In this document: positions 5,634 through 7,865 of the stretch, in pieces
Position numbering within the stretch: position 1 is the first letter of the stretch
How the letters are laid out: each line of letters starts with the position of its first letter
The notes under the pieces: generated by a model
Seen by the model: only the letters and a program-made list of their open reading frames with translations
Database searches by the model: none
What the model was told of the DNA's origin: nothing
IMG/VR virus record: IMGVR_UViG_3300017776_000271
Coordinates: 1 to 20,757 of that record
Source: a virus
Strand: one strand, 5' to 3'
Length of the DNA: 20,757 nt
Position numbers and translations under genes: made by a program

Positions 5634-5799
5634 CGAATTAGTTCTCCAAGCAAAAGAAATAAAATATTCTGGGGGGTTATCTTTAGTTATGACTATATCA
5701 GGATTTGAGAGTAGGGAAGACATTGCAAGATTTGCTGATCTTTACTTAGGCAACGAATATGATAATTCGCTGCCAATAATAAATGAAACAATACATTAA
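5548..5799 (+). CDS. Unknown early protein, 83 aa or shorter
   Basis: The open frame gives 83 residues from ATG 5548, but the first 20 overlap the previous gene and look like a shadow (many Lys/Leu). A TTG at 5608 would give about 63 residues starting near QRDYRLTDELVLQAKEIKYS, which looks more natural. The C-terminal part (ISGFESREDIARFADLYLGN) is an acidic helix. I see no family motif. Its stop overlaps the stop of the convergent minus-strand gene within TTAA, so the two operons meet with no spacer and no evident terminator. Confidence 0.5.
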   Translation: MKLLICMKNLKKKTLKPENLLQRDYRLTDELVLQAKEIKYSGGLSLVMTISGFESREDIARFADLYLGNEYDNSLPIINETIH

Positions 5800-5951
5800 T
5801 AATATTTTTTAAAATCTTTTAAACTTAATTTAAAAAATTCTTTAAATATTGTGTTAATTACTTTTCTATATTCTTCTTGATTACCTTTAAATTGGCTAAT
5901 CATCAAAGAACCTACAATTTCATTTAATCTAAATATTTCTTTTTTACTCAT
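5796..5951 (-). CDS. Unknown tiny protein, 51 aa, last gene of the small-gene operon
   Basis: A 51-residue lysine- and phenylalanine-rich helical protein (MSKKEIFRLNEIVGSLMISQ, then FKGNQEEYRKVINTIF). AAAAAAGG lies about 10 nt before the ATG, which is 8 bp inside the end of the upstream gene. The stop overlaps the convergent plus-strand gene by 4 bp. The frame is open and the composition protein-like, but no function can be read. Confidence 0.5.
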   Translation of the reverse strand: MSKKEIFRLNEIVGSLMISQFKGNQEEYRKVINTIFKEFFKLSLKDFKKYY

Positions 5952-6147
5952 TATCACTTTCCTTTTTTAAATTGTTTAATTGTGATTGTAGGGACCTAAT
6001 TTTCTTTTCGTTCCTTGTTATTATTTCTATCATTTCTAGTAATACTCGACTAAGCACACTAGAAGACACTCGGTTATTGTTATCTATCTCTAAACACAGA
6101 TAGTTAATATCTTTTATCAATTCATGTTGGGGGTGTACTTCAATCAT
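5944..6147 (-). CDS. Small coiled-coil protein, 67 aa
   Basis: A 67-residue protein. The first half is mixed (MIEVHPQHELIKDINYLCLE), and residues about 33-62 form a heptad-type helix (VLLEMIEIITRNEKKIRSLQ, then SQLNNLKKE) suited to a dimeric coiled coil. It starts in TAATG with the stop of the upstream gene and overlaps the next gene by 8 bp, so it is firmly part of the coupled operon. Function unknown; such small helical proteins in phage early clusters often bind a host protein, which here is inference only. Confidence 0.55.
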   Translation of the reverse strand: MIEVHPQHELIKDINYLCLEIDNNNRVSSSVLSRVLLEMIEIITRNEKKIRSLQSQLNNLKKESDNE

Positions 6148-6287
6148 TATTTACCTTCACAATTTTTAATTATTTCTTTAACTTTTTCTTTAACAAGATC
6201 TTTAAACCAATCTGAGTCAGTTATTATATCTATATGATGAGATACAACTTCATCTAATGCTTCAGTTAATTTATTTTTAGTAGTCAT
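6147..6287 (-). CDS. Unknown tiny protein, 46 aa
   Basis: A 46-residue protein beginning MTTKNKLTEALDEVVSHHID and ending in a Lys-rich helix (KDLVKEKVKEIIKNCEGK). The GAAGGTAAATAATG at its end carries the ribosome-binding site of the next gene within its own last codons. Start and stop both overlap neighbours in TAATG junctions, which supports it as a real gene despite the size. No family recognised. Confidence 0.5.
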   Translation of the reverse strand: MTTKNKLTEALDEVVSHHIDIITDSDWFKDLVKEKVKEIIKNCEGK

Positions 6288-6514
6288 TATTTACCTCTCT
6301 TAATTTTCATTAAAGTAACTTCTGCTTCTGCATAAAAAATAGTATTATCAGGCATACAAATTGAAGTACCTTCTGCATAATCACAATCATAACAATATTC
6401 AGATGGTTTACTCTTTGTATGTTTAATCTGATTATTTTCTATGTTTGCACTTCCACAACTGGCGCAAACTTCAATCCCATTTTCAAGAATATCTCTGTAA
6501 GAATAACTACTCAT
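6287..6514 (-). CDS. Small zinc-ribbon protein, 75 aa
   Basis: A 75-residue protein with two cysteine pairs, VCASCGSA at residues 16-23 and YCYDCDYA at 44-51, spaced 24 residues apart. That is the classic four-cysteine zinc ribbon. Between them is a basic segment (NQIKHTKSKPS) that could touch nucleic acid or protein. The C-terminal 25 residues are beta-like (NTIFYAEAEVTLMKIK). I prefer the ATG at 6514, which has GGAGGG upstream and overlaps the previous stop in TAATG, over the in-frame ATG at 6526. Small phage zinc ribbons often bind RNA polymerase or other host enzymes; that role is inferred, the zinc site is seen. Confidence 0.65.
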   Translation of the reverse strand: MSSYSYRDILENGIEVCASCGSANIENNQIKHTKSKPSEYCYDCDYAEGTSICMPDNTIFYAEAEVTLMKIKRGK

Positions 6515-6840
6515 TATGCCCTCCAATAATATTCTGAATTATCAAAGTCTATCATGCTATAATCCATAGCCATTGACTCTGCCCAATCTTTCCAATCTAT
6601 GTGAAAGTGTAAAGGGTTATTATCATCTTGACGATCTAAATAACCACAATCATAAGCAAAGTCTTCACAATACTCTATCCAATAACTTTTGTGAATAAAT
6701 GCAATTCCCATTTCAAAATCTTCTTCTCCAACTTCTTCAATGAGGTTATTTATTTCTTTTATTCTATCTTCGTCATATTCTTTGTCTAAAGTTTTTAATT
6801 CTTCTAACAAATCTCGACTATCAATAATTTCCCAACTCAT
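6514..6840 (-). CDS. Highly acidic protein, 108 aa, possible DNA mimic/anti-restriction
   Basis: By count this 108-residue protein has 31 Asp/Glu against 9 Lys/Arg. Acidic residues are spread through the whole length, with aromatic residues among them (KSYWIEYCEDFAYDCGYLDR, IDWKDWAESMAMDYSMIDFD). The C-terminal pattern FAYDCGYLDR...IDWKDWAESMAMDYSMIDF resembles the conserved tail of ArdA-like anti-restriction proteins and related phage proteins, in which an alpha-helix plus aromatic and acidic surface copies the shape of B-DNA. Length is shorter than typical ArdA (about 165 aa). GGGAGG 4 nt upstream is a strong ribosome-binding site. It sits in an operon of small accessory genes, a usual place for counter-defence genes. 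The role is inference. Confidence 0.6.
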   Translation of the reverse strand: MSWEIIDSRDLLEELKTLDKEYDEDRIKEINNLIEEVGEEDFEMGIAFIHKSYWIEYCEDFAYDCGYLDRQDDNNPLHFHIDWKDWAESMAMDYSMIDFDNSEYYWRA

Positions 6841-6850
6841 TTAACCTCCC

Positions 6851-7117
6851 TTACAATCTACTGTTAATTTGTTTGGCTAATCTTTTATTAACCATGTTAT
6901 GTAAAATATCTTTAACAAGATAATCTCTCGCTAGTCCCATGTAGTAAGGCATATGACCTTGACTTTCATGCTCTCTCATAATTTCTATTGCTTGTTTCTT
7001 TTGTAATTCTCTACCAAAGTTTACAGCTATCAAGACAGCATTTTCACTATGACAATTTTTGTCTGTGTTTTGTTCAATGGTTTTTAAAAAAGAAGTGTAA
7101 TCAGTATTCTTTATCAT
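6851..7117 (-). CDS. Unknown small protein, 88 aa
   Basis: An 88-residue protein, mostly helical, with no recognised motif. It carries a His/Glu-rich stretch (REHESQGHMPYYMGLARDYL) and a basic C-terminus (NMVNKRLAKQINSRL). AAGGAGATAAATA before the ATG at 7117 is a strong ribosome-binding site formed by the end of the upstream gene. A 10-bp gap containing GGGAGG separates it from the next gene. It is a firm member of the small-gene operon, function not visible. Confidence 0.6.
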   Translation of the reverse strand: MIKNTDYTSFLKTIEQNTDKNCHSENAVLIAVNFGRELQKKQAIEIMREHESQGHMPYYMGLARDYLVKDILHNMVNKRLAKQINSRL

Positions 7118-7120
7118 TAT

Positions 7121-7294
7121 TTATCTCCTTTTTTTTATATTTAATTTTTTAAGATCATTTTCATTTATTCTTTTTGCACTAATTAGTTTTAATGATCTAA
7201 CAACTGCATTAAATTGATCTACTGGGATTTTAGTCAACCAATAATCAACTTCGTCCTTCCAAACTTCGTATTTTTCAAGATTATTAAAATTCAT
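7121..7294 (-). CDS. Unknown tiny protein, 57 aa
   Basis: A 57-residue protein (MNFNNLEKYEVWKDEVDYWL...) with an acidic-aromatic first half and a strongly basic end (RINENDLKKLNIKKRR). The final codons AAAAGGAGATAA double as the ribosome-binding site of the next gene. The start overlaps the previous stop in TAATG. It is too short for the usual ORF cut-off but well supported by the coupled junctions on both sides. Confidence 0.5.
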   Translation of the reverse strand: MNFNNLEKYEVWKDEVDYWLTKIPVDQFNAVVRSLKLISAKRINENDLKKLNIKKRR

Positions 7295-7407
7295 TATTTA
7301 TCTCCCTCAAAGTAATAGATTAAAAACATAACTAGGCTCACAAATCCAAGCCCAGTTATGCTAAATACTAAAGCGCCAATTAATAAGTTAAAAATATAAA
7401 GGTCCAT
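7294..7407 (-). CDS. One-pass membrane peptide, 37 aa
   Basis: A 37-residue peptide whose residues about 5-32 are a single hydrophobic helix (IFNLLIGALVFSITGLGFVS, then LVMFLIYYF), ending EGDK. The ATG at 7407 has GAGGG 5 nt upstream, and the stop overlaps the next ATG in TAATG, with GAGGGAG of the last codons acting as its ribosome-binding site. Tiny membrane proteins of this kind occur in phages as superinfection-exclusion factors or lysis regulators. Which, if either, applies here is unknown. Confidence 0.55.
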   Translation of the reverse strand: MDLYIFNLLIGALVFSITGLGFVSLVMFLIYYFEGDK

Positions 7408-7582
7408 TTAACCCTCTAAGTTTACTCATTACTGAAAGCACTTCTTTAGAAGTCATAAACATTAATCGACTAACTGCTTCGTGCTGCTCTTTATCGTTTA
7501 AATTAGGTTTCAATAGTTCAAATAATTCTTTGTGCTTATCTGATCTAAACAAGTCTATTTTTATTTTTCTTACTTTATCCAT
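7388..7582 (-). CDS. Unknown small protein, 64 aa, first gene of the small-gene operon
   Basis: A 64-residue protein with a basic N-terminus (MDKVRKIKIDLFRSDKHKEL) and helical remainder (NDKEQHEAVSRLMFMTSKEV). GGGAGA before the ATG is a strong ribosome-binding site. Its end overlaps the membrane-peptide gene by 20 bp. It is the promoter-proximal gene of the leftward small-gene operon, facing the AGTAAGT repeat region, and is thus likely the best expressed. No family recognised. Confidence 0.55.
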   Translation of the reverse strand: MDKVRKIKIDLFRSDKHKELFELLKPNLNDKEQHEAVSRLMFMTSKEVLSVMSKLRGLNGPLYF

Positions 7583-7606
7583 ATTTTCTCCCTTGTTTAA
7601 TATGTT

Positions 7607-7665
7607 AGTAAGTCAGTAATTGAGTAAGTAAGTAATGTCAATTAATAATTGCGTAAGTGAGTAAT
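7607..7665 (+). repeat. Three AGTAAGTnAGTAAT-type repeats in a divergent control region
   Basis: Three 14-bp units: AGTAAGTCAGTAAT (7607-7620), AGTAAGTAAGTAAT (7623-7636) and CGTAAGTGAGTAAT (7652-7665), each one mismatch from the second except the third, which has two. They lie between the leftward operon start (7582) and the ribbon-helix-helix gene (7686). A further GTAAGTAAAT occurs over the stop codon of that gene. They are good operator candidates; replication iterons are the alternative. Confidence 0.7.
7620..7649 (+). promoter_or_regulatory. Promoter candidate for the ribbon-helix-helix gene
   Basis: TTGAGT (7620-7625) and AATAAT (7644-7649, 5/6 to TATAAT) with an 18-bp spacer. Repeat 2 lies between the boxes and repeat 3 over the expected start, so a protein bound to the repeats would block it. 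A minus-strand TTGACA at 7641-7636 could serve the opposite direction but has no clear -10. Confidence 0.35.
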
Positions 7666-7685
7666 AAAGTTTAAAGACGATCAGA

Positions 7686-7865
7686 ATGAATAAGCCACAA
7701 TCAAAACCTCATCGTTTACAATTCAATACTGATGATAAGAACAAAGATAGAATAGAAAACTATCGCTTTAATAATAGAATAGGTTCACAATCTACTGCAA
7801 TTGAACAGTTGGTACGTATGGCATTAGATCAGTTGGATAAAAGTACAGATAAAAAAGGTAAGTAA
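7686..7865 (+). CDS. Arc/MetJ-like ribbon-helix-helix regulator, 59 aa
   Basis: A 59-residue protein. PHRLQFNTDD near residues 8-17 suits the DNA-contacting beta-strand, KDRIENYRFNNRIG (20-33) the first helix, and SQSTAIEQLVRMALDQLDK (34-52) the second helix, with the usual small residue and Ser/Thr at its start. Members bind DNA as dimers of dimers on short direct or inverted half-sites and often repress their own gene. The three AGTAAGT-type repeats just upstream are matching targets. Upstream, a ribosome-binding site is weak (AAAGACGATCAG before the ATG). It is divergent from the small-gene operon and precedes the packaging region, so it may set the balance between them. The fold is probable; the target is inferred. 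Confidence 0.6.
   Translation: MNKPQSKPHRLQFNTDDKNKDRIENYRFNNRIGSQSTAIEQLVRMALDQLDKSTDKKGK

Follow-up and report, generated by a model that had tools for sequence, protein, structure and literature searches.

How phages shuffle genes so precisely at their edges is an old open question. In T4-type mobile regulatory cassettes, small genes are shuffled together with their expression signals. The lambdoid phages offer short conserved boundary sequences (Clark 2001; Susskind and Botstein 1978, as cited in PMC3029335), and PMC3029335 ties mosaicism to homologous recombination at such short conserved intergenic sequences. In the Island3 gene 68 indel of Cluster I mycobacteriophages, one small gene lies between repeats of about 50 base pairs (bp) that encode matching C-terminal tails of its neighbours, a single event (PMC3029335). 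The start-associated sequences (SAS) and extended start-associated sequences (ESAS) of Cluster K mycobacteriophages are short asymmetric repeats containing a Shine-Dalgarno (SD) sequence, placed directly upstream of the starts of unrelated genes, sometimes including the stop of the upstream gene, and are described in PMC3203893 as likely translation signals. The subject here is an operon of nine very small genes on the minus strand of IMG/VR virus record IMGVR_UViG_3300017776_000271 (20,757 bases, the whole of which was analysed and is called the window). It is somewhat more probably than not a variable operon of plug-compatible one-gene cassettes joined by a stop-SD-start word.

The boundary word of the locus, unlike that of the lambdoid phages, is an SD plus a stop-start overlap and stands between single tiny genes; common sequence is found on both sides of the exchanged genes g3 and g7, and overall of only some exchanged genes (6/18 at 8 nucleotides (nt) or more). 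Its repeats are 11-14 nt long and serve several slots, where Island3 has one event and far longer repeats. As a repeat at the SD position of several unrelated small genes it has the SAS-type feature; unlike SAS, the operon word belongs to the upstream coding tail, has a link with gene loss and appears in three registers, whereas the role proposed for SAS in PMC3203893 is translation, not exchange. The 13-bp SAS consensus GGGATAGGAGCCC gave no match at up to two mismatches, in a search that did not extend to ESAS-type inverted repeats. Unlike T4-type mobile promoter cassettes, the operon is not enriched in promoter-like sites of the one type counted (12 sigma-70-like sites, 14.4 expected in shuffles). 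As to integron features, no integrase appeared among the early proteins scanned (most late genes lay outside that scan), and the one hairpin is inside g2 only. Literature searches, in which subscription papers were thinly covered, returned no description of such a stop-start junction. The findings fit the boundary-sequence idea at a finer scale, with a putative ribosome relay as the boundary word.

The operon and its junctions

The original prediction had picked out nine genes of 37-108 amino acids (aa), arranged head to tail between 5796 and 7582 on the minus strand, and all nine open reading frames (ORFs) were confirmed in place and strand. The gaps between neighbours, from g1 to g9, are -20, -1, +3, +10, -1, -1, -1 and -8. 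In order of transcription the features are:

g1, 7388..7582, minus strand: 64 aa, opens the operon; found in all four distinct genomes (below)
g2, 7294..7407, minus strand: 37 aa, hydrophobic; its last codons double as SD for the gene after it; the constant block ends here
junction copy 1, 7292..7305, minus strand: GGAGATAAATAATG, g2/g3, stop and start overlapping by 1 nt
g3, 7121..7294, minus strand: 57-aa cassette; clean absence in L005/L023; unrelated 54-aa gene in its place in L010
junction copy 2, 7115..7128, minus strand: GGAGATAAATAATG, g3/g4; same DNA as copy 1, stop in a different register, gap +3
g4, 6851..7117, minus strand: 88 aa; weak, sub-cutoff Pfam NARF match
g5, 6514..6840, minus strand: 108 aa, very acidic (isoelectric point 4.1, net charge -22); PHROG 25535, no known function
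g6, 6287..6514, minus strand: 75 aa, zinc-ribbon-like
junction copy 3, 6285..6295, minus strand: GGTAAATAATG, g6/g7
g7, 6147..6287, minus strand: 46-aa cassette; clean absence in L006/L007; unrelated 52-aa gene in its place in L005/L023
junction copy 4, 6145..6155, minus strand: GGTAAATAATG, g7/g8
g8, 5944..6147, minus strand: 67 aa; by eye a probable coiled coil; a divergent allele, with near-identical g6 and g9 on either side
g9, 5796..5951, minus strand: 51 aa, last of the operon; protein 100% identical in L005, L006, L007 and L023

The four shared junctions of that prediction are thus two pairs, g2/g3 with g3/g4 and g6/g7 with g7/g8. A 53-aa GTG form of g9 is less likely because relatives match from the ATG at 5951.

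The proposed mechanism is as follows. Each cassette spans its own ATG to its tail. At most junctions its last codons also serve as SD for the gene that follows, whose ATG abuts or overlaps the stop; an inserted cassette should therefore be translated by coupling, the ribosome being passed on as drawn here. In several slots the joint is one near-identical DNA word, GG[AGA/T]-TAAATAATG. TAAATAATG itself stops two reading frames and the third closes shortly downstream, so genes ending in any frame should be joinable. The 11-14 nt junction repeats may be the homology used, via phage annealing or exonuclease-driven recombination, and the cargo would be accessory host-interaction genes under a divergent repressor. 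More tentatively, and on balance doubtfully, a lineage-specific, frame-tolerant stop-SD-start adaptor might act as ribosome relay and recombination joint at once: accessory genes could then be swapped singly yet translated, and each lineage, having its own adaptor, would exchange only with matching partners.

Single genes gained, lost and replaced

Relatives were found via the terminase and the small genes, with near-duplicates removed. Four distinct genomes have the operon: the window, L005 (close to L023), L006 (as L007) and L010, in which it is cut by the contig end. Among relatives with a large terminase about 94% identical, whole genes differ in six slots: 1) ahead of g1, only L006 has a gene (57 aa); 2) after g2, g3 in the window, nothing in L005, a 54-aa gene in L010, and in L006 a 119-aa and a 58-aa gene replacing g3-g5; 3) after g4, g5 or, in L010, an 87-aa gene; 4) after g6, g7 in the window, a 52-aa gene in L005, nothing in L006; 5) between g8 and g9, a 54-aa gene in L023 (in L005 it lacks one base) or nothing; 6) after g9, nothing or, in L005, a 232-aa gene. 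Genes g1, g2, g6, g8 and g9 are kept wherever the contig extends that far. Single-gene gain, loss and replacement are thus observed directly, and homology ends within a few bases of stop and start codons. That these genes would be gained and lost as units, as had been predicted, is strongly supported by this base-precise comparison of four distinct close genomes; the gene set is anything but invariant. (The 54-aa cassette between g8 and g9, intact in L023, is out of frame in L005, through decay or sequencing error.)

Might chimeric assembly of metagenomic contigs have produced apparent swaps? The close relatives are, to be sure, all uncultured contigs, but two of the arrangements each occur in two separately assembled contigs (L005/L023, 98.8% identical; L006/L007, 99.96% identical) and the boundaries lie non-randomly at gene ends, which makes this explanation very improbable.

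L003, L004 and L014 (terminase also about 94-95% identical) have different genes, several of them much larger, in the operon position; L004 and L014 retain GGTAAATAATG starts. At this locus, on the minus strand upstream of the terminase, all three encode a 441-498-aa protein (PHROG 16683 for L004), and two of them, L004 and L014, have in addition a gamma-glutamylcyclotransferase (for L004, Pfam GGACT at 2.8e-14) and a protein that resembles, below cut-off, class-II glutamine amidotransferases.

Precision of the joints

Five aligned contigs share g2 through GAGGGAGATAAATAA and then part at the next gene; the four distinct genomes have four different next genes. After g6, GGTAAATAATG leads into three different genes. 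In group A, homology with the upstream gene stops at +0 to +6 relative to the following start in 16/19 comparisons (the other three, one event, end at the g4 stop codon), and in group C, the phages sharing g6, 19/20 end at +3 to +7; these comparisons are pairwise and non-independent, and group E gave four only. HTVC010P-type isolates, against which the precision of the boundaries was to be gauged, proved too diverged, their tails being only 70% alike; over 31 pairwise events the ends scatter from -46 to +17.

Such precision can also be had by selection alone: exchange would be random, with little or no homology, and in so compact an operon only joins with intact genes, a stop and a functional SD would survive; since an SD, an AT-rich spacer and overlapping stop and start allow little variation, the junctions would come out alike. 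PMC3029335 gives illegitimate recombination close to the ends of genes as the customary account of phage mosaicism, and stop/start boundaries occur here even where the junctions differ. What this explanation does not lead one to expect is seen at the empty sites. Among the seven internal genes g2-g8, long common flanking suffixes exist only at g3 (14 nt) and g7 (12 nt), and g3 and g7 are the only internal window genes with clean empty sites in relatives. Joined at the repeat, the window flanks predict the L005 site at 90/94 bases and the L006 site at 80/91, the joint itself being exact: both empty sites are the joint expected from recombination between junction copies. Over five groups, a flanking suffix of at least 8 nt is found for 6/18 genes with an empty-site relative and 8/113 others (P 0.0044); at least 9 or at least 10 nt gives P 0.018; and the mean flanking-junction match is 9.2 against 7.7 of 17 (P about 0.03). 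The genome-specificity of near-identical junctions and the use of one 14-nt word in different registers, which codon-level convergence does not favour, both taken up below, also tell against it. Selection alone is nonetheless a real possibility, if an unlikely one. The junction may cause exchange, or selection may merely keep clean joins: the greater similarity of junctions flanking mobile genes has P about 0.004-0.06, according to the suffix cut-off.

Single-gene alleles have probably been exchanged too. Compared with L005, the window shows 82/370 synonymous differences in the terminase, 2/49 in g9, 1/35 in g2, 2/58 in g1, 3/65 in g6 and 14/39 in g8; the adjacent g8 and g9 are discordant (P 0.00015), whence the suggestion. 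The low g2 value could come in part from constraint at the RNA or DNA level.

How exceptional is the word?

TAAATAATG stands behind a GG/SD word at 4/8 internal operon junctions. The window has five copies of it against 0.98 expected (0/100 shuffles reach five), 4/5 of them cassette starts; GGTAAATAATG occurs twice against 0.04 expected, GGAGATAAATAATG twice against 0.00. With the operon starts of the window set against its other 21 SD-bearing starts, 4/9 near-identical pairs (at least 11/15) result (label shuffle 71/10,000). Within the window alone the excess of junction similarity is real but modest. Across ten genomes with small-gene runs, homologous genes excluded, 17/371 junction pairs within genomes reach at least 12/15 and 9/3053 between genomes (0/10,000 label shuffles): near-identical junctions are genome-specific. 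Once general ribosome-binding-site sequence is allowed for, the similarity weakens but does not vanish.

In Angelica, where SAS are known, the Markov-null statistic picks them up (11 pairs reach 12/15 or better, against 0.56); it is high too in Methylophilales phage Venkman, HTVC106P and T7, and junction repeats in the right part of lambda are not significant by it. In Venkman (L068, MT375522) several small genes among the early ones on the minus strand are preceded by GGRGTGTTTAAAC, a strong start-associated repeat, and its whole genome has 18 near-identical start pairs against 2.5 expected.

Is the word a start-associated regulatory element of the sort that has been suggested for the Cluster K SAS, retained because it sets the translation rate or binds a phage protein or RNA, with swapping incidental? 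Its place is indeed where SD and start lie: in the window, L005, L006, L010 and L023, every TAAATAATG on the cassette strand is at a called gene start. SAS likewise precede the starts of small genes and have been proposed as translation signals (PMC3203893). A link between repeats and gene loss is, on the other hand, not what such an element predicts, and half of the junctions lack the word; we consider this explanation improbable.

A number of observations weigh against plug-compatible cassettes joined by a common word. The other 4/8 operon junctions of the window are without the motif, as selection alone would have it. A position-specific Markov null on all 40 window starts gives only a modest excess (P 0.013 at 11/15 or better, 0.037 at 12/15 or better); the test of operon against other starts is not significant within L005, L006, L007 or L023; and L061 and L062 have no significant junction repeats. 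For mobile genes, a flanking suffix of at least 12 nt gives 4/18 against 8/113 (P 0.06), longest-common-substring versions of the test give P 0.03-0.13, and the 8/113 other genes are likewise flanked by repeats. Slots whose junction is not repeated have seen exchange too: leader/g1, g4/g5, g8/g9 and after g9. By eye the C-terminal tails of g6 homologues seemed to go with the host operon and not with the protein family, but a test of this failed at P 0.34 against g6 homologues elsewhere (against any junction elsewhere, P 0.014). No annealing protein was identified among the proteins scanned; only a PD-(D/E)XK exonuclease-like gene was found, at 1519-2163. The 154-aa product of 1058-1522, considered for the part, was dropped: it has no family at cut-off and no phage match, and is unlike the HTVC034P annealing protein. 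Phage annealing proteins were assayed, in PMC3945230, on 300-980 bp of homology, far longer than 11-14 nt, so that the sufficiency of such short words is not shown there.

One word, three registers

Upstream genes run into the junction DNA in three different registers, with gaps of -1, +3 and -8. The gap -1 tails are EGDK, KRGK and CEGK; at gap +3, which occurs in L031 as well, the window has KKRR; the gap -8 tails are EVNNE in L006 and EINNE in L023. One DNA word thus closes upstream genes in three registers, and therefore it is the DNA that recurs, not a common protein tail. A scan for two GGTAAATAATG copies 130-160 nt apart found 21 stretches, 17/21 enclosing a single small ORF, counts that stand without a chance expectation. 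Fourteen of these ORFs end at +1, two at -3 and one 14 nt before the second copy, and the other four stretches do not enclose a single small ORF; by eye the 17 are of seven unrelated kinds. In L093 (535-689) and L091 (3243-3396), homologous 46/47-aa genes have C-termini that are apparently frameshifted, and the GGTAAATAATG junction closes both.

Here two base-exact gene losses fall at a short, identifiable DNA word, from which it would follow that exchange depends on matching ribosome-relay sequences. If this is right, swappable small genes below the usual size cut-offs could be found as one-gene segments bracketed by one stop-SD-start word.

Cargo

What do the cassettes carry? Pfam, PHROGs and NCBIfam name no function for any operon cassette scanned, giving only sub-cutoff or unknown-function matches, and no known anti-defence protein is found among those cassettes in the same collections. 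The original prediction stands as to cassettes; for its further suggestion of counter-defence or host takeover no evidence and no named family match was found. A counter-defence role is possible, and the reading as an island follows from position, size and variability only. The proteins scanned gave no gene in support of a transposon.

The phage, the leader and individual genes

The plus strand of the window encodes terminase subunits, a portal and capsid-region genes, and the left part has, besides the exonuclease-like gene, a replication-initiator-like gene. Its terminase shares 44-47% identity with the terminases of 15 phages among the matches listed, mostly HTVC010P-type pelagiphages, and the portal is 44% identical to that of HTVC106P: the source is an uncultured marine phage, a distant relative of the HTVC010P-type pelagiphages. 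No match was returned by an INPHARED DNA search with the operon, by tblastn of g6, or by Rfam.

The operon is likely one transcription unit and is probably expressed early. Upstream of it lie:

leader, 7592..7673, minus strand: AGTAAGT-like repeats, phase mainly 8 nt; conserved; probable operator/promoter region of the operon
putative repressor, 7686..7865, plus strand: 59 aa, divergent from the operon; resembles PHROG 4738 (transcriptional repressor) weakly, at E 0.0023

The 8-nt-phased repeats, lying between the operon and this divergent small gene, are as expected of a tandem-box operator.

The gene traits first noted hold: g6 is zinc-ribbon-like (four Cys invariant in 20 homologues), g2 is hydrophobic (grand average of hydropathy 1.38) and g5 is very acidic. 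Relatives of g6 are encoded at 27 IMG/VR loci, many within runs of small genes; its structure predicted from a 20-sequence alignment has a mean predicted local distance difference test score of 52. Inside g2 (7325-7362, minus strand) lies a terminator-like element, a 16-bp hairpin with a T-run after it and a folding z of -2.64 (1/200 shuffles equally good), and g2 DNA is nearly invariant across five contigs. Standing directly before the most variable slot, the hairpin may be an attenuator.

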